Shown piece after piece: positions 752 to 21,156 of a stretch of 64,000 nt of DNA. The position numbers were made by a program, and so were the translations under genes. Origin of the DNA: Massilia violaceinigra. Its GTDB lineage: Bacteria; Pseudomonadota; Gammaproteobacteria; Burkholderiales; Burkholderiaceae_D. Position 1 is the stretch's first letter. Each line of letters begins with the position of its first letter. The DNA lies in NCBI RefSeq assembly GCF_002752675.1, contig NZ_CP024608.1, positions 6,324,001 to 6,388,000 of the forward strand, in the 5' to 3' direction. The notes below the pieces were generated by a model. It worked only from the letters and a program-made list of their open reading frames with translations. It ran no database searches and was not told the origin of the DNA.

Positions 752-2845
752 CTGCGGTGTCGACAGCCAGCCATCCGGACTGATCTTGCGCACCTTGCCG
801 TGCCCGCTCATATACAGATCGCCATTCGGCGCGAAGCTCATTTGCACCGGGGAGTAAAAGCCCAGCGCCGTCGAGCGCGCGGGGCCATCTGCACTCCCGT
901 GCCGGCCCGGCACGCCGGCAAAGACCGACAGCACGTCCTGCTTGTCGAGCTTGAGGATGGTCGCACTGACTGTGTCCGCAATGTACAGGTTCCCCGCCGC
1001 GTCCAGCGTCAGGCCGGTCGGATTGAATCCATCCGACGGATCGGTCAGGCCGGTGGCTTTGAGCATGCGCTGGACGTCGACCAGCACGCTGACCTGGCCC
1101 GATGGCGTGATCCTGACCACTTTTTCCGGCATCGAGGCCAGCACGTTGCCCTGCGCATCGATCCGCATTTCCACGATCCGCGGCAGGGCCGGCGTGGGGG
1201 TGATCGCGGTCATTTTCCCGGCCACGATCTTGCCGATCCAGCGCGTGTCGGCCACATACACGGCGCCGGCCGCGTCGAGCGCGACCGCCCTTGGAAAGAC
1301 GAACTGGATCGGATCGAGGCTGGCGCTCCACGATCCGCGCGAACCGGCGAACGTCGTGACGACACCTTCGGGAATAATCTTGCGCACGACCCTGTAATTG
1401 GAATCGGCGAAGTACAGGCTGCCGGCGGCGTCAACCGACAGGCGCGCGGTTTGCAGGAACCTCGCATTCGAGCCCGCGCCGTCGCTGCTACCCATGTAGT
1501 ACGGCGTTGCAGCCGAGGTAGTCACGACGCCCGACCTGGTGATAGTCTGTAACACATCATCGTCGCCCAGGCGTGCGATATTCCCCGCCGGATCGAATGC
1601 CAGCATTCCTGAGAAAGCAAGGCGGGGCCCATTGCCATAGCCCGGTGGTCCGATATTCGAGTCCGCGCCACCGGCCAGCGTACTGACCAGGCCAGCGGGC
1701 GTCATCTTGCGTACCATTCCCACATCCGAGAGAAACAGGTCGCCGACCGCATCGACCTTCATCGACGACAGAGCACCGAACACCGCCGACCTGCCCATGC
1801 CATCGCTCAACTGTTTCGTATCGTCGCCGTCGCCCGCCAGCAGGGTCGCCACGCCGCCCGCGATCGTGTAGACCTTGCTGTAGTCGGCGGCGTACAGCGT
1901 GCCATCTTTTCCCATCGCCACGAGGTGCGGCTGGGTCAGCGGCGCCGCACTGCCGGCCGGGTTGGTCCAGCCGACCGTGGTGACGACGCCGGCCGGGGTC
2001 ACGCGCCGATAACGCGCGCCCTGCTCCAGCACCAGATAGTCGCCGTTGGTCGCGAGCGCCAGTTCGAAAGGCTGGTCGAACAGCGCCGCCGCGCCGGCAC
2101 CGTCGCGTATCTCGACCGCTTTTTTGGCGTAGACGCAGACCCGGCGTGGCGTGCCCGCGATCGTGCTGACCAAGCCCGCCGGCGTGATCTTGCGCAGCGT
2201 ATTGTTACAGGTATCGGCCAGGATCAGGTTACCGACGCCATCGACGATCATGCGCGAGCGGCGGTCGAAATGAAAACTGGCCGCGCCGGCGGCCCCATCC
2301 TGGGCGCCGAACACACTGGCCGAACCGGCCAGGGTGGAGATGGCGCCGGCCGGCGTGATTCTGAGCACGACCTGACGCCCGAGATCCATGATGAAGGTAT
2401 TGCCCGACTTGTCCATCGACATGCCGGACGAGGTGTGCAGCGGCACCGCCGTGCCGGCCAGGATGAGCGGGAAGCAATTGACCCTGATGTTGCTCACGGC
2501 GCCCTTGCCGACCGTACCGGCGCCATCGGTGACGCTGCACGAACGCCCCGCAGGCGCGGTCACGGCAACCGCATACGGCGCACCCTCGCGTCCCCGCTGA
2601 CGAAATTGGAACGTTCCATCGCGGTCCACCACGACGCTGTCGCCACCGTTCGCCAGCGACAGCGGGACGCCCCACTCCAGGCCGGCGACCGTGCCGCCTA
2701 TCTCGTAGCTCTGGACGCTTGTCGGCGGCGCGGGATTGCCGCCCCCACCACCGCCGCCGCAGGCGGCCAGGGCGGCGCACAGTGCCAGCGAGAGCGAATG
2801 GTTCAGGATGACCTGACGGCCCGGTGTAGAAGGTTTGCTTGTCAT
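647..2845 (-). CDS. NHL-repeat (SMP-30-like beta-propeller) lipoprotein
   Basis: This 732-residue protein begins with a lipoprotein signal (ALCAALAAC, followed by a glycine run), so it is probably anchored in the outer membrane or periplasm. After a short N-terminal beta domain (about residues 45-130) come many repeats of the type 'DGxGNLxxADTxNNTLRKITPAG-VSTxAG', the hallmark of NHL beta-propellers. There are roughly nine to ten repeats, enough for one propeller plus extra blades. Such proteins are usually binding scaffolds; no catalytic motif is visible. It is transcribed alone, convergent with the partial gene to its left. The ATG at 2845 is the only start that leaves an intact signal peptide. 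The specific ligand is unknown. Confidence 0.85.
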   Translation of the reverse strand: MTSKPSTPGRQVILNHSLSLALCAALAACGGGGGGGNPAPPTSVQSYEIGGTVAGLEWGVPLSLANGGDSVVVDRDGTFQFRQRGREGAPYAVAVTAPAGRSCSVTDGAGTVGKGAVSNIRVNCFPLILAGTAVPLHTSSGMSMDKSGNTFIMDLGRQVVLRITPAGAISTLAGSASVFGAQDGAAGAASFHFDRRSRMIVDGVGNLILADTCNNTLRKITPAGLVSTIAGTPRRVCVYAKKAVEIRDGAGAAALFDQPFELALATNGDYLVLEQGARYRRVTPAGVVTTVGWTNPAGSAAPLTQPHLVAMGKDGTLYAADYSKVYTIAGGVATLLAGDGDDTKQLSDGMGRSAVFGALSSMKVDAVGDLFLSDVGMVRKMTPAGLVSTLAGGADSNIGPPGYGNGPRLAFSGMLAFDPAGNIARLGDDDVLQTITRSGVVTTSAATPYYMGSSDGAGSNARFLQTARLSVDAAGSLYFADSNYRVVRKIIPEGVVTTFAGSRGSWSASLDPIQFVFPRAVALDAAGAVYVADTRWIGKIVAGKMTAITPTPALPRIVEMRIDAQGNVLASMPEKVVRITPSGQVSVLVDVQRMLKATGLTDPSDGFNPTGLTLDAAGNLYIADTVSATILKLDKQDVLSVFAGVPGRHGSADGPARSTALGFYSPVQMSFAPNGDLYMSGHGKVRKISPDGWLSTPQLGWGNVDIHSMVYSQGKLYGMTAGAVMQTVLPPN

Positions 2846-15079: not shown

Positions 15080-15853
15080 GTGTCCATTCCCGCCCAAAAC
15101 AGCAATTCCAACACCGTGTCCGACCAGCGCCTGAGCACCCGGCGGGCCTACGATATCGAGCAGCGAGCCTATGCCGCTGTCGGGCGCAGCTTCGCCGCCG
15201 GCAGCGAGGCAAGGAGCCGCCATCTGCGCATCGTCTTCGCCTCGGTGGCGGTGGTGACGATCATGATCCTGATTGCAATGCTGGCCATGCTCACCCAGGA
15301 AAACATCAGCTCGCCCCATGCGCTCAAGATCGCCGCCGCCGGCAAAGCCGCGCCCGAGCCGGCCAAGGGCAAGCCGGTGGTGATCATCGATGAAAAGGAC
15401 GATGCGCCCAAGCGGCCGGTGGTTGCCTCCGGGCCGATTCCACCGCTGGTACTGCTCACGCCCGCCGAGGCGCGCCCTGCCCCGGCGATGGTCCAGGCGC
15501 GGCCGGCCGCGGTGGTCAAAACGAGCGTCAAGGTACGCGAACGCGGCAAGCTGGCCGCCGCGACGCTCAAGCATGCCGCCTTGAAGGCGGGAAAAACGGC
15601 ACATCCGCAGGCCGCGAACAGCGTGGCGGCGCGCAAGGCCGCGCGCAAGACATCCGCACCAGCCCCGGTGAAGCGCAGGGTGTCGGCCTCCGCTGCCGCC
15701 AGCCCGGTGCAGCAAGCCCGGCATGCCGACACCGGTGCGCTCGACACCCTGTTCTCCTTCGCCAGCCTGCCGCGGCGCTACCTGGGCCAACCGGTGCCGG
15801 TGATGGCGTCCCGGCAGACGCTGTCGCGCCGGCACTACCTGAGCAAACCCTGA
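15080..15853 (+). CDS. Single-pass membrane protein with an Ala/Pro/Lys-rich periplasmic tail
   Basis: About 257 residues. The GTG at 15080 is chosen because CCAGGAG lies at the right distance; a TTG six bases upstream is too close to it. A soluble N-terminus of about 50 residues (VSDQRLSTRRAYDIEQRAYAAVGRSF) is followed by one transmembrane helix (about 52-75; IVFASVAVVTIMILIAMLAML). The rest is a low-complexity tail rich in Ala, Pro, Lys and Arg. Function unknown; the layout resembles envelope-spanning linker proteins. It precedes the LexA-box promoter of the FAN1 operon and is probably a separate unit. Confidence 0.6.
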   Translation: MSIPAQNSNSNTVSDQRLSTRRAYDIEQRAYAAVGRSFAAGSEARSRHLRIVFASVAVVTIMILIAMLAMLTQENISSPHALKIAAAGKAAPEPAKGKPVVIIDEKDDAPKRPVVASGPIPPLVLLTPAEARPAPAMVQARPAAVVKTSVKVRERGKLAAATLKHAALKAGKTAHPQAANSVAARKAARKTSAPAPVKRRVSASAAASPVQQARHADTGALDTLFSFASLPRRYLGQPVPVMASRQTLSRRHYLSKP

Positions 15854-15912
15854 AAACCACGGCCAGACGCACGCGAACCGATTTTGCTGGGGTTTGACGG
15901 TCACTGACGATA

Positions 15913-15932
15913 TACTGTACATAATTACAGGT
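15913..15932 (+). promoter_or_regulatory. LexA (SOS) box upstream of the FAN1-helicase operon
   Basis: The site contains CTGT-N8-ACAG (15915-15930) with an AT-rich centre and flanking TA/GT, a close match to the gammaproteobacterial/betaproteobacterial LexA consensus. It starts 43 bases before the nuclease ATG. A TTGACG at 15894-15899 with TACATA 18 bases later suggests that the box overlaps the -10, so LexA would block the promoter and DNA damage would release it. Confidence 0.75.
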
Positions 15933-15955
15933 ATCGGTCGATTGCCCGCAGTGCG

Positions 15956-17608
15956 ATGCGCAAAGTTCTTGAGAATGAGTTCTACTACCTGGACAACTTC
16001 CATCAGGTATTGGAATGGATTGCCGGGCGTTACAGCGACTTGCTCACCGATGAGGAGCAAGCGTTCATCGCCACGTTCCCGTCGCTGCCGCAAGCATCGC
16101 GCGCGCTGCTGGTGCGCATGGTCATGCGCAAGGGCATGGTCTTCCGCGCGAGCAAGCTGAATTATGCGGAAATCGGCTGCGCGGTCGAGGCCGCGCGCCA
16201 CCTGCTGCCCACCGGCTGGGTCCAGTGCGACCCGGTGATCACGCTCGACGAACTGTTCGAGCTGCTGCTCAAGGCCGAAATCGGGACCATTTTCAGCCTG
16301 TCCCTGCACGAGAAAAACGCGCGCAAGGCCGAGCAGCTGGCCGCCCTGCGCGAGGCGTTCGGCGATGCCCGCGCGTTTTCGGCGTGGTACCGCGATTCGC
16401 CCGACACCGTCTACAGCATCCCCGTCAAGGCCCTGTGCGACCGCCTGCGCCTGATCTTCTTCGGCAACCTGCGCCAGGACTGGACCGAATTCGTGCTGTC
16501 CGACCTCGGCTTCTTCCAGTACGAAAAGGTCGAGTTTTCGGCCTCCTCGCGCGGATTTCGCACCCGGCGCGATGTCGACGACTACCTGGCGCTACACCAG
16601 TGCAAGGAGCGCTTTCGCGCCGGCGACGCCCTGCCCGAGGTGCTGGCCAGCCTGCCGCGCGACCAATTCGACAACGAATGGATCGACAGCCGGCGCGAAC
16701 GGCTGATGTTCCAGATCGCCCAGCATGTGGAAAAGCAAAAAGACTGGGGCCAGGCGTTCGAGCTCTACGCCTGCTGCAACTATCCCGGTGCGCGGGCGCG
16801 CGCCATCCGCGTACTGGAAAAGCACGAGCGCCATGCCGAGGCGCATGCGCTGCTCGAACGGGCCCAGGCCGCCCCCGAAAGCGACGCCGAGCGCCAGCAA
16901 CTGCTGCGCATCGCGCCGCGCCTGCGCCGCAAACTCGGTCACCAGCCGCTGCCGTCGCGCCGCAATCCGTTCGTCGCGCGGCTCGACCTGAGCCTGCCGA
17001 TGCCGCCTGAACCCGGCTGGTGGGTCGAAGGCATCGTGCGCGACCACCTGGCGCGCGCCGACGCGCCCGTGTACTACGTCGAGAATGCGCTGATCAATTC
17101 CCTGTTCGGCCTGCTGTGCTGGCGCCCGATCTTCAGCGCCATTCCCGGGGCGTTTTTCCACCCGTTCCACCGCGGCCCGGCCGACCTGCACAGCGCCGAT
17201 TTTTACCGCCGGCGCGAGCGCGAGTTCCGCGCCTGCCTCGACCAGCTCGACGACGGCCGCTACCAGGACACGATCCGCGCCAACTACGACAGCAAGCGCG
17301 GTATCCAGTCGCCGTTCGTGGCGTGGGAAGCGCTCAGCGCCGAACTGCTGGACATGGCGCTGGCCTGCATCCCCGCACTGCACCTGAAAAAATGGTGCGA
17401 GCGCATCCTGCTCGACATCAAGGCCAACCGCAACGGCTTCCCCGACCTGATCCAGTTCTGGCCCGTCGAGCGGCGCTACAACATGATCGAAGTGAAGGGC
17501 CCGGGCGACCGCCTGCAGGACAACCAGCTGCGCTGGATCGAATACTGCGCCGCGCACCAGATGCCCATTTCGGTATGCTACCTGCAGTGGGCGCAGCCGT
17601 GTTCGTGA
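15956..17608 (+). CDS. FAN1-type VRR-NUC structure-specific nuclease
   Basis: This 550-residue protein matches bacterial FAN1 homologues in length and layout. A long helical N-terminal and TPR-like region (about 1-430; starts FYYLDNFHQVLEWIAGRYSDLL) binds branched DNA, and a C-terminal VRR-NUC domain carries the PD-(D/E)XK centre: PDLIQFWP (D about residue 496) and IEVKGPGDRLQDNQ (E-V-K about 512-514). FAN1 cleaves 5' flaps and helps unhook interstrand cross-links. The helicase gene starts seven bases after its stop. A LexA box 24 bases before the ATG predicts SOS induction. The RBS is weak. Confidence 0.9.
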   Translation: MRKVLENEFYYLDNFHQVLEWIAGRYSDLLTDEEQAFIATFPSLPQASRALLVRMVMRKGMVFRASKLNYAEIGCAVEAARHLLPTGWVQCDPVITLDELFELLLKAEIGTIFSLSLHEKNARKAEQLAALREAFGDARAFSAWYRDSPDTVYSIPVKALCDRLRLIFFGNLRQDWTEFVLSDLGFFQYEKVEFSASSRGFRTRRDVDDYLALHQCKERFRAGDALPEVLASLPRDQFDNEWIDSRRERLMFQIAQHVEKQKDWGQAFELYACCNYPGARARAIRVLEKHERHAEAHALLERAQAAPESDAERQQLLRIAPRLRRKLGHQPLPSRRNPFVARLDLSLPMPPEPGWWVEGIVRDHLARADAPVYYVENALINSLFGLLCWRPIFSAIPGAFFHPFHRGPADLHSADFYRRREREFRACLDQLDDGRYQDTIRANYDSKRGIQSPFVAWEALSAELLDMALACIPALHLKKWCERILLDIKANRNGFPDLIQFWPVERRYNMIEVKGPGDRLQDNQLRWIEYCAAHQMPISVCYLQWAQPCS

Positions 17609-17615
17609 GGCGCGC

Positions 17616-19871
17616 GTGAGCTACGTTGTGGCGGTGCGCGCCCTGTGCGAATTTTCAGCCAAGCAGGGCGACCTCGATCTGCGCTTCACGCCCTCGCCCA
17701 CGGCCCAGGAAGGCATCACCGGCCATGCCATGGTGGCCGAGCGGCGCGGCCCGGGCTACCAGAAAGAGGTCAGCCTGTCCGGCGAATACGGCCCGCTGCT
17801 GGTGCGCGGACGGGCCGACGGCTACGATCCGGCCCAGAACCTGATCGAAGAAATCAAGACTTACCGCGGCGACCTTGAGCGGATGCCGGCCAACCACCGC
17901 CACCTGCACTGGGCGCAGGTGCGCGTGTACGGGCACCTGCTGTGCGCGCAGCTCGGTCTGGACGAGGTGTCGCTGGCCCTGGTGTATTTCGACATCGGCA
18001 AGCAGACCGAAACCGTGCTGCGCGAAACCCGCAGCGCCGTCGACCTGCGCACGATGTTCGCCGAACAGTGCGAGCGCTTCGTGGCGTGGGCCGCGCAGGA
18101 ACTGGCGCACCGCGCAGCGCGCGACGCGGCGCTGGGCGCGCTGCGGTTCCCGCATCCGGATTTTCGTCCAGGCCAGCGCGACTTGGCCGAAACCATCTTC
18201 CGCGCCAACAGCAGCGCGCGCTGCGTGCTGGCGCAGGCCCCGACCGGCATCGGCAAGACCGTCGGCACCCTGTTCCCGGTGCTCAAAGCGGCGCCGCTGC
18301 ATCGCCTGGACAAGGTGTTTTACCTCGCAGCCAAAACCCCCGGGCGCAAGCTGGCGCTCGACGCGGCGCAGGCGATCAAGCGCAGCGCGCCCGGCATGCC
18401 GCTGCGCGTACTCGAACTGGTCGCGCGCGACAAGGCGTGCGAGCATCCCGACAAAGCCTGTCACGGCGACTCCTGCCCACTGGCCAAGGGCTTCTACGAC
18501 CGGCTGCCCGCGGCGCGCAGCGCGGCGCGCGAGGTAACGCTGCTCGACCGCGAAGGCCTGCGCGAAGTCGCGCTGGCGCACCAGGTGTGCCCGTACTACC
18601 TGGGCAGCGAAATGGCGCGCTGGAGCGACGTGGTGGTGGGCGACTACAACTACTACTTCGACATGGGCGCGATGCTGTACGGGCTCGCGCTGGCCAACCA
18701 GTGGCGGGTCAGCGTGCTGGTGGACGAGGCGCACAACATGGTGTCGCGCGCGCGCAAGATGTATTCGGCCGACCTGGAACGCGGCGCGTTGCGGGCCGCA
18801 CGCGCGGTAGCACCGGCGCACCTGAAAAAGGCGCTCGACAAGGTGGGCCGCAGCTGGCCGTCCAAGGATGGCGCGGACTACGAGGTGCTTGACGCGCCCC
18901 CCGAGAAGCTGCTCGATGCGCTGCAGGGCGCATCGAGCGCGATCACCGATTTTTTGGCGGCGAACCCGGGGCCGATGGAGCCGGACCTGCAGCGCTTTTA
19001 CTTCAACGCCCTGCACTTCGCCCGGCTGGCCGAGACCTTTGCCGAGCACTCCATGGTCGACTGCACGCGCGATGGTGCGCACGCATCCACGCTCGCGATC
19101 CGCAACATCGTGCCGGCGCCGTTTCTGAAACCGCGCTTTGCGCTGGCCCACGCGACGGCCCTGTTTTCGGCCACGCTCAGTCCCTGGAACTATTACAGCG
19201 ATGCGCTTGGCCTGCCGCCGGACACGGCCTGGGTCGACATCGACTCGCCCTTCGTGGCCGATCAGTTAAGCGTGCATGTGGTGCGCGACATCTCCACGCG
19301 CTTTACCCACCGCGCCAGATCGGTGGAGCCGATTGCGGCGCTGATCGCGCGCCAGTACGCGCAGGAACCGGGCAATTACCTGGCGTTTTTCAGCAGCTTC
19401 GATTACCTCGACCAGGTGGCCGACCGCGTGGAACGCGATTTTCCCGACATTCCCGTGTTCCGCCAGCCGCGCCGCATGGCCGAAACGGAGCGCGACGCTT
19501 TTCTGGGACGCTTCACGCTCGAGAGCCGCGGGGTCGGCTTTGCGGTGCTGGGCGGCTCCTTCGGCGAAGGCATCGACCTGCCGGGTGCGCGCCTGATCGG
19601 CGCCTTCATCGCCACGCTCGGGCTGCCGCAAATGAATCCGGTCAATGAGCAGATACGCCAGCGCATGCAGGCGACGTTCGGTGCTGGCTACGACTACACC
19701 TATCTGTATCCGGGCATGCAGAAGGTGGTGCAGGCAGCCGGCCGCGTGATCCGCACCGAGGGCGACCGCGGCGTGGTGTACCTGATCGACGACCGTTTCG
19801 CCCAGCCCGAGGTGCGCGCACTGCTGCCGCGCTGGTGGCATGTGGACCAGAGCCGCATTGCGTTGACTTGA
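17616..19871 (+). CDS. Rad3/DinG-type Fe-S DNA helicase with N-terminal RecB-like nuclease domain
   Basis: A 751-residue protein with a GTG start, seven bases after the FAN1 gene. Residues about 1-160 contain a Cas4/RecB-like PD-(D/E)XK set: GRADGYDP (Asp), IEEIKTYRG (E-x-K about 77-79) and the QxxxY motif in WAQVRVYGHLL. The XPD/DinG-type superfamily 2 helicase follows: Walker A QAPTGIGKTVGT (about 205-216), four Cys for a 4Fe-4S cluster (about 273, 281, 286, 324), the DEAH box VDEAHN (about 368), and motif VI QAAGRVIRTEGDRGVVYLID near the end. It probably unwinds and trims DNA at lesions together with the FAN1 protein. Co-regulation by the shared LexA box is inferred. Confidence 0.92.
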   Translation: MSYVVAVRALCEFSAKQGDLDLRFTPSPTAQEGITGHAMVAERRGPGYQKEVSLSGEYGPLLVRGRADGYDPAQNLIEEIKTYRGDLERMPANHRHLHWAQVRVYGHLLCAQLGLDEVSLALVYFDIGKQTETVLRETRSAVDLRTMFAEQCERFVAWAAQELAHRAARDAALGALRFPHPDFRPGQRDLAETIFRANSSARCVLAQAPTGIGKTVGTLFPVLKAAPLHRLDKVFYLAAKTPGRKLALDAAQAIKRSAPGMPLRVLELVARDKACEHPDKACHGDSCPLAKGFYDRLPAARSAAREVTLLDREGLREVALAHQVCPYYLGSEMARWSDVVVGDYNYYFDMGAMLYGLALANQWRVSVLVDEAHNMVSRARKMYSADLERGALRAARAVAPAHLKKALDKVGRSWPSKDGADYEVLDAPPEKLLDALQGASSAITDFLAANPGPMEPDLQRFYFNALHFARLAETFAEHSMVDCTRDGAHASTLAIRNIVPAPFLKPRFALAHATALFSATLSPWNYYSDALGLPPDTAWVDIDSPFVADQLSVHVVRDISTRFTHRARSVEPIAALIARQYAQEPGNYLAFFSSFDYLDQVADRVERDFPDIPVFRQPRRMAETERDAFLGRFTLESRGVGFAVLGGSFGEGIDLPGARLIGAFIATLGLPQMNPVNEQIRQRMQATFGAGYDYTYLYPGMQKVVQAAGRVIRTEGDRGVVYLIDDRFAQPEVRALLPRWWHVDQSRIALT

Positions 19872-20433: not shown

Positions 20434-21156
20434 TCAGCCGATCAGCGCCCTGACCTTCTGGTAGCCGCTGCGGCTGACCGGCAGGCGGGTGCCGTCCCTG
20501 AGGATCGCGGTGTGGCTGTCCCTGCCCTGCTCGATGCGCTCGATGGCGCCGAGGTTGAGCAGCCGGGAACGGTGGATGCGCACGAAGAGGGCCGGATCGA
20601 GCTGGCTTTCGAGTTCCGACAGGCGCTGGTTTTTCAGATAATGCTTGCCTTCCGCGCTGATGCGCACGTAGTCATCCTGCGCTTCGATATAGTCGATCTG
20701 GCCGGCGGCGATGATGTGGACGCGCGCTCCGTCGCGAATCAGGACCCGCTCCAGCGGCTTGCTGCGCTGCGCGGCCTCGCGCAGCACGGCGTCGACCCCG
20801 ACTTTGGCGACACTGGTGCGCGCATGCGCCAGCGCGGCGTCGAGGCGCTGCTGGCTGAAGGGTTTGAGCAGGTAGTCGACGGCGTGGATATCGAAGGCCT
20901 TGAGCGCGTACTGGTCGAAAGCGGTAACAAATATATAGCGTGCCTTGGCGCCGGCCAGTTCCACGACCTCGAAACCATTCAGCTTGGGCATCTGGATATC
21001 GAGGAAAACCAGGTCCGGTTCCAGTTCGGTAATGGCCTTGACAGCGTCGAAGCCGTTCGCGCATTCGGCCACGATGTCGATATCGGCATGCTTACCCAAA
21101 AACTCGCGCACCAGAGCGCGCGCGAGGTCTTCATCGTCGACGATTATGACGCGCAT
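20434..21156 (-). CDS. LytTR-family response regulator
   Basis: This 240-residue regulator has a receiver domain (about 1-120; acidic pocket VDDED, phospho-Asp in VFLDIQMPKL about residue 55, Lys in YLLKPF) and a LytTR DNA-binding domain (about 140-238; EAQDDYVRISAEGKHYL and FVRIHRSRLLNLGAI). It is the last gene of a four-gene leftward operon. Its start overlaps the sensor kinase stop by 13 bases, so the two form a two-component pair of the LytSR/AlgZR type. Confidence 0.94.
   Translation of the reverse strand: MRVIIVDDEDLARALVREFLGKHADIDIVAECANGFDAVKAITELEPDLVFLDIQMPKLNGFEVVELAGAKARYIFVTAFDQYALKAFDIHAVDYLLKPFSQQRLDAALAHARTSVAKVGVDAVLREAAQRSKPLERVLIRDGARVHIIAAGQIDYIEAQDDYVRISAEGKHYLKNQRLSELESQLDPALFVRIHRSRLLNLGAIERIEQGRDSHTAILRDGTRLPVSRSGYQKVRALIG

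Follow-up and report, generated by a model that had tools for sequence, protein, structure and literature searches.

A predicted LexA-controlled operon that pairs the nuclease FAN1 with an EndoDinG helicase-nuclease in Massilia violaceinigra and related bacteria

Why should a bacterial gene for the Fanconi-associated nuclease FAN1 stand behind what looks like a LexA box and directly before the gene of a nuclease-helicase? The question is raised by 64,000 nucleotides of Massilia violaceinigra (contig NZ_CP024608.1, positions 6,324,001 to 6,388,000), called here the window, with positions counted from its first letter. A previous reading of the sequence alone had proposed that the two genes form a LexA-controlled operon; the match of the box to others in its own genome and its conservation among orthologues support this, and our comparative genomics makes LexA control very likely. 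The whole explanation that we favour, with a probability of about 0.8, is that of a two-gene, LexA-repressed SOS operon whose products, FAN1 and EndoDinG, would process damaged forks. The locus is composed of the following features, given with the evidence for each:

15915..15930, no strand assigned: predicted LexA (SOS) box, CTGTACATAATTACAG (exact match, genome rank and family conservation).
15956..17608, plus strand: FAN1 (bacterial Fanconi-associated nuclease 1), with helix-turn-helix/N-terminal domain, SAP domain, middle region and VRR-NUC domain (Pfam and PDB).
17616..19871, plus strand: EndoDinG, with an N-terminal PD-(D/E)XK nuclease and an XPD/DinG-type iron-sulphur (Fe-S) helicase (Pfam and PDB).
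17616..18170, plus strand: Cas4/EXO5/RecE-like nuclease domain, residues 1-185 of EndoDinG (AlphaFold2, Foldseek and motifs).

The putative operator CTGTACATAATTACAG is an exact match to CTGT-N8-ACAG. It does lie before the FAN1 gene, as the sequence-only reading had it, at a distance from the ATG at 15956 of 25 bases, not 24. This is the sole exact match in the window; because 0.48 matches are expected by chance in 64 kb, and 37 of 100 shuffled windows contained at least one, the single match is not significant by itself; its conservation is. In the 7.53 Mb of the host genome there are 37 places with the pattern, versus 15 for the reversed control. Genes preceded by it include lexA (two boxes; L017, PF01726 plus PF00717), recA (L010) and dinB (L001), whose identities were confirmed with Pfam, as well as a PolIII-alpha/PHP gene that we read as dnaE2, a radical-SAM gene and, identified by sequence reading only, imuA and a NAD kinase gene. 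A weight matrix made from eight of these SOS boxes, with the operon box excluded, ranks the latter ninth of the 37, just under recA and over dinB, dnaE2 and the start-proximal lexA box. The operon box matches those of the genome's own lexA and recA, and also that of dinB.

Within the family of the window's host, FAN1 was present in 66 of 145 genomes, of which we read one locus each; here and below, genome counts are taken without correction for relatedness. EndoDinG followed FAN1 on the same strand in 65 of the 66 loci and the remaining one (L099) is at a contig end, giving 65/65 where the pairing can be checked. An exact box lay within 250 nucleotides of the FAN1 start in 46/66 loci, compared with 1/66 for the reversed pattern and 2/1,320 for mononucleotide shuffles. 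In five more loci (L070, L075, L078, L085 and L098) an additional short gene separates FAN1 from an exact box, raising the total to 51/66, although the longer search that retrieved these five had no control of its own; there the box seems to have kept its place ahead of what is now a longer transcription unit. The box is therefore conserved at most operons of the family, and also, as described below, in all the sampled genomes of the Pseudomonas group.

EndoDinG is more widespread than FAN1 in the family, being present in 87 of the 145 genomes; in 21 of these 87 no FAN1 match was obtained. We read 20 of these 21 helicase-only loci, and tblastn detected FAN1 at none of the 20. Three (L178, L179 and L181) are too short upstream, and a box was found in only one of the 17 testable loci (L177); nine of the eleven helicase-only genomes searched carry CTGTATN4ATACAG elsewhere. 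Because helicase-only loci are nearly boxless, the operator goes with FAN1 and not with the helicase, and we rejected the box as a feature of the helicase. In L177 (genome G059) there is an exact box 134 nucleotides before the helicase gene with no FAN1 detected in between, which looks like a recent loss of FAN1.

The same arrangement appears in the genus of P. aeruginosa PA7. FAN1 was found in all 25 genomes drawn from it, PA7 included, which correspond to 26 loci because FAN1 is split in two in one of them. EndoDinG is adjacent in 26/26, its start overlapping the FAN1 stop (gap -4) in 25/26, and a CTGT-N9-CAG box lies 9-32 nucleotides upstream of FAN1 in every one; eight of these boxes are exact CTGT-N8-ACAG matches and the rest are CTGT...CCAG forms, with 0 exact matches for the reversed control. 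PA7 itself has the box CTGTATGCATGAACAG 21 nucleotides before a FAN1 that is 57% identical to the window protein, with the helicase behind it. The form CTGTATN3TN3CAG occurs in PA7 at 13 places; tblastn with nine reference proteins assigned four of them to FAN1, recA, a radical-SAM gene and, weakly, a LexA-like peptidase, and left the other nine unmatched by these proteins. Likewise, a scan of named genomes with P. aeruginosa FAN1 (PaFAN1) yielded 11 loci, all with the helicase and ten with a box (four exact, six with one mismatch), the eleventh having 120 nucleotides upstream; two of them (L107 and L108) are apparently the same contigs as family loci L072 and L077.

In the order, FAN1 was found in 22 of 300 genomes, 16 of them from other families, and the helicase was adjacent in 15 of those 16; within 350 nucleotides upstream, an exact box was present in four (L192, L195, L197 and L200). 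Four loci of family f186 (L193, L199, L201 and L204) have CTG-N10-CAG forms upstream of FAN1, a loose pattern that also fits 2 of 12 loci of families f187 and f202, apparently by chance; L187 had neither form within the same distance. In the class, FAN1 was found in 17 of 369 genomes. Of the 16 loci besides that of the window, ten (L111-L120) have the helicase adjacent, two (L121 and L122) are too short, and four distant FAN1 relatives (23-28% identity) lack a helicase within 1-1.5 kb; only 2/16 have an exact box (L112 and L115).

Families f187 and f202 show a different operator. Their seven loci in the order survey carry the palindrome GAACGWWCGTTC instead, exactly in six cases. Among all the FAN1 genomes found in these families (4 of 10 in f202 and 8 of 43 in f187), GAACGWWCGTTC is exact within 200 nucleotides upstream of FAN1 in 10/12, with one mismatch at L239 and two at L191, and EndoDinG is the neighbouring gene in 12/12. 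We searched seven of these genomes: CTGTATN4ATACAG was absent from all seven, and GAACGWWCGTTC occurred 3-9 times per genome, with 0-2 for its reversed control and one occurrence in the window's genome. The 39 sites represent 36 places; we read every one and compared it by tblastn with proteins from the window's genome. This assigned 22 of the 36: six to FAN1, four to recA (one in each of the four FAN1-bearing f202 genomes), four to imuA, three to the radical-SAM gene, one to dnaE2 and four (L212, L221, L224 and L235) to a divergent LexA-like S24 protein, which shares 27-29% identity with the LexA of the window's genome. Because GAACGWWCGTTC also precedes recA, imuA, dnaE2 and the divergent LexA in some genomes, the simplest reading of these sequences would be that LexA specificity changed in f187 and f202, and that the FAN1 operon switched operator along with the SOS regulon. 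This switch is best supported in f202 and in genome G823 of f187.

The first open reading frame, 15956-17608, is by its sequence a complete FAN1 of the KIAA1018 group, with full-length architecture and PD-(E)XK residues predicted to be catalytic. The VRR-NUC, FAN1-like gene of the sequence-only reading is borne out by matches to FAN1_HTH (PF21315, E-value 1.4e-38), FANC_SAP (PF18081, 6.1e-16) and VRR_NUC (PF08774, 1.9e-34). Residues 5-545 match the PaFAN1 (PA1865) structures 4r89 (E-value 9.1e-200) and 5y7g (1e-199), which share the same full-length architecture and catalytic residues. The latter are given as D507, E522 and K524 in the passage of PMC9635880 on PaFAN1, and align, with an offset of 10, with D497, E512 and K514 in the window; P496-D497, E512 and K514 show at least 98% conservation across an alignment of 113 sequences, some of which share a genome.

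EndoDinG begins with a GTG at 17616, seven bases past FAN1, as already proposed, and has 751 residues, ending at 19871. It matches PF13307 (E-value 6e-40) and PF06733 (4.1e-12), and the Finegoldia magna DinG (PDB 9kqh) aligns over residues 5-741 (2.9e-112); the Fe-S cysteines 275, 282, 287 and 325 and the DEAH motif at 370-373 show at least 98% conservation across an alignment of 59 sequences. AlphaFold2 modelled residues 1-185 with a mean predicted local distance difference test (pLDDT) of 89.6 and a predicted template modelling score (pTM) of 0.83, and the best Foldseek match to this domain was again 9kqh (E-value 3.7e-14), followed by SSO0001, human EXO5 and RecE, with lambda exonuclease and AddAB lower down. 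The nuclease motifs claimed for the N-terminus, GRADG (65-69), E79-x-K81 and Q101-x3-Y105, are all there, with at least 98% conservation across the 59 sequences; H37, E51, G65-R66-D68-G69, E79, K81, Q101 and Y105 are invariant in 25. The name EndoDinG was given to this nuclease-bearing DinG architecture in a 2025 review, of which the excerpt available (PMC11981726) also cites unpublished nuclease data for the Bdellovibrio protein. Judged by its motifs, the window's helicase belongs to this subgroup, sharing with it the H-E-D-E-K nuclease residues, the CCCC Fe-S cluster and the XPD/DinG core with DEAH. Among the best 120 matches of this helicase, the named relatives come mainly from Massilia and Telluria. 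The operon seems to comprise just two genes because the next gene downstream (20434-21156), for a LytTR response regulator, is on the opposite strand; a consensus scan for terminators found nothing, and the upstream flanking gene has no Pfam match.

How might the two proteins work? LexA bound at 15915-15930 would repress the operon until RecA filaments on damaged DNA induced LexA self-cleavage, whereupon FAN1 and EndoDinG would be made together. FAN1 would then cut 5'-flap or forked DNA beside an obstructing lesion, for example an interstrand cross-link, and EndoDinG would load on single-stranded DNA, move 5'-3' by its Fe-S helicase motor, open the junction for FAN1 and trim the freed strand with its Cas4/EXO5-like nuclease. 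Cutting of 5' flaps is described for the human and P. aeruginosa proteins in the passage seen of PMC9635880, and PA1865 is said to guide interstrand cross-link unhooking in an excerpt of PMC12796719; by analogy, the window's FAN1 would play the same flap and cross-link role. The EndoDinG steps are suggested by fold, motifs and the 65/66 pairing. Gene pairing and overlapping starts support joint action on damaged forks, and the operon may encode the two-nuclease, one-helicase unit for cross-link or flap repair that was proposed from the sequence alone.

The alternative that survives best is that the pair is transcribed together under LexA control but encodes products that act independently, making this a co-regulation unit and not a joint machine. 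FAN1 would then act on cross-links or flaps, and EndoDinG on R-loops, stalled forks or ends, resembling a resector of the Dna2/AddAB type. Independence would agree with the 21 of 87 family genomes that have EndoDinG without a FAN1 match, and with FAN1 without an adjacent helicase in L195 and the four distant relatives; against it, FAN1 in the family is always beside the helicase where contigs permit the check, and in the Pseudomonas group the pairing is universal (26/26) and nearly always overlapping. We consider independent action a serious possibility at less than even odds. As for joint action on forks, its most ambitious form holds that FAN1 and EndoDinG are one dedicated cross-link and fork machine, belonging to the SOS core of many Beta- and Gammaproteobacteria and a bacterial two-protein counterpart of the Fanconi FAN1-plus-Fe-S-helicase branch, its operator having turned from CTGT-N8-ACAG into GAACGWWCGTTC when the recognition sequence of LexA changed in two families; this we put forward tentatively, as falling just short of an even bet. 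Human FAN1 and FANCJ likewise combine a FAN1 nuclease with an XPD-family Fe-S helicase in cross-link repair, and FANCJ (9ej9) is a weak match of EndoDinG (E-value 5.2e-8). The human genes are not known to be co-transcribed, however, and human FAN1 has a UBZ domain and FANCJ no known nuclease domain.

Could the helicase be instead the DinG of a type IV-A CRISPR system, with the pair serving as a defence module? The PADLOC model typeIV_DinG PDLC01439 (CAS-IV-A associated) does match 17616-19871 with an E-value of 3.1e-116, but the match is confined to the helicase part (residues 171-741), the protein has the added nuclease domain that marks EndoDinG in the excerpt of PMC11981726, and an exact 20-mer scan of the window found no CRISPR-like repeat array, no genome-wide search for csf genes having been made. 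We thus rejected this identity as very improbable; with such a match on this chromosomal EndoDinG, PDLC01439 probably gives rise to erroneous type IV-A annotations.

Several results weigh against the favoured explanation or against the operator switch. Fifteen of the 66 family loci have no exact box. Four of these (L049, L056, L058 and L086) have a one-mismatch CTGT...CCAG box near the FAN1 start and two (L072 and L096), also counted among the 15, are at contig ends where the box cannot be judged; the remaining ones have no convincing box. These loci are not explained by a motif that is out of use in their genomes, because CTGTATN4ATACAG occurs elsewhere in all seven boxless FAN1 genomes checked (its reversed control gave 0 in 17 of 18 genomes searched and 1 in G115). 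Outside the family, L195 (genome G650) has FAN1 with an exact box and no helicase in the next 1.5 kb. As to the switch, 14 of the 36 GAACGWWCGTTC places matched no tested gene, GAACGWWCGTTC preceded recA in none of three f187 genomes, and in G707 and G737, also from f187, FAN1 was the only tested SOS gene that carried it. A consensus scan of 15750-16050 found 0 sigma-70-like promoters, giving no support to the previous proposal that the box overlaps the -10 element. Finally, in the excerpt of PMC12796719, PA1865 is repressed by hydrogen peroxide, and the authors do not count PA1865 and PA1866 as LexA genes. An accidental box before a constitutive operon would accommodate the chance expectation for the window, the missing promoter and the boxless orthologues, but we reject it as highly improbable because of the conservation and position of the box and because, in other families, it has turned over together with the SOS operator.

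FAN1, EndoDinG and SOS operons are each known; what is new is this operon as a probable member of the SOS regulon, with an informative operator switch. Among the matches listed from the open-licence PMC literature, we found no paper reporting that LexA controls FAN1. Structures and cross-link biochemistry exist for bacterial FAN1, whose physiological place is little described in the literature searched; conserved LexA control and coupling to a nuclease-helicase would put it in the SOS response. According to passages of a 2026 paper (PMC12796719), PA1865, the Pseudomonas FAN1, and PA1866 respond to UV-C outside known regulons, and PA1865 is induced by ciprofloxacin. From the gene order in PA7 we infer that PA1866 is the helicase. 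Those passages, in contrast with our proposal, do not place PA1865 in the LexA regulon; LexA control would explain the damage response of both genes outside the listed P. aeruginosa regulons, and a new SOS regulon member is consistent with their published UV induction. The operator swap in two families is, in turn, a natural experiment, suggesting that selection keeps the operon under LexA.

Related arrangements are on record. LexA sites were predicted in 2012 before "Helicase c2" genes of Burkholderiaceae and Comamonadaceae, according to the part of PMC3323433 consulted; these may be the window's helicase, and the main text of that paper contains no word beginning with VRR or nuclease. A VRR-NUC gene upstream of a helicase gene is mentioned, citing Iyer et al. 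2006, in a passage of PMC9635880 on the T1p21 subfamily, a VRR-NUC subfamily other than KIAA1018/FAN1, and that passage describes no LexA control. The available text of the EndoDinG review (PMC11981726) has no word beginning with VRR, and its section 13 gives neither LexA control nor a gene partner. The NCBIfam models for DinG and YoaA scored far under their cut-offs on EndoDinG (84 versus 598 and 84 versus 680 bits, respectively). Like EndoDinG, E. coli DinG and YoaA are XPD-family 5'-3' helicases linked to SOS; they are not known to have a nuclease domain.

The search of the window's genome for CTGT-N8-ACAG also retrieved boxes before other genes, for which positions are given within each locus and not in the window. 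The highest-scoring one, CTGTATAAATATACAG (L016, 1501-1516), lies 90 nucleotides before a DUF4007 gene (PF13182; 487-1410, minus strand). DUF4007 is linked to defence loci, and this gene may be an SOS-controlled defence. Another box, CTGTACGTTAATACAG (L026, 1501), is found 17 nucleotides before a phage-type integrase gene (PF00589; 1534-2694, plus strand), and in L025 a box at 1501 lies 73 nucleotides before the gene for a response regulator with an EAL domain (1590-2816, plus strand). In L032, a double LexA box (1501 and 1520) precedes a gene for a 70-residue protein without Pfam match (1590-1799, plus strand), which is a candidate for a new small SOS protein. A homologue of this protein (47% identity over 62 columns) is encoded between the box and FAN1 in L085, and similar proteins were recognized by eye at the same position in L075, L078 and L098.

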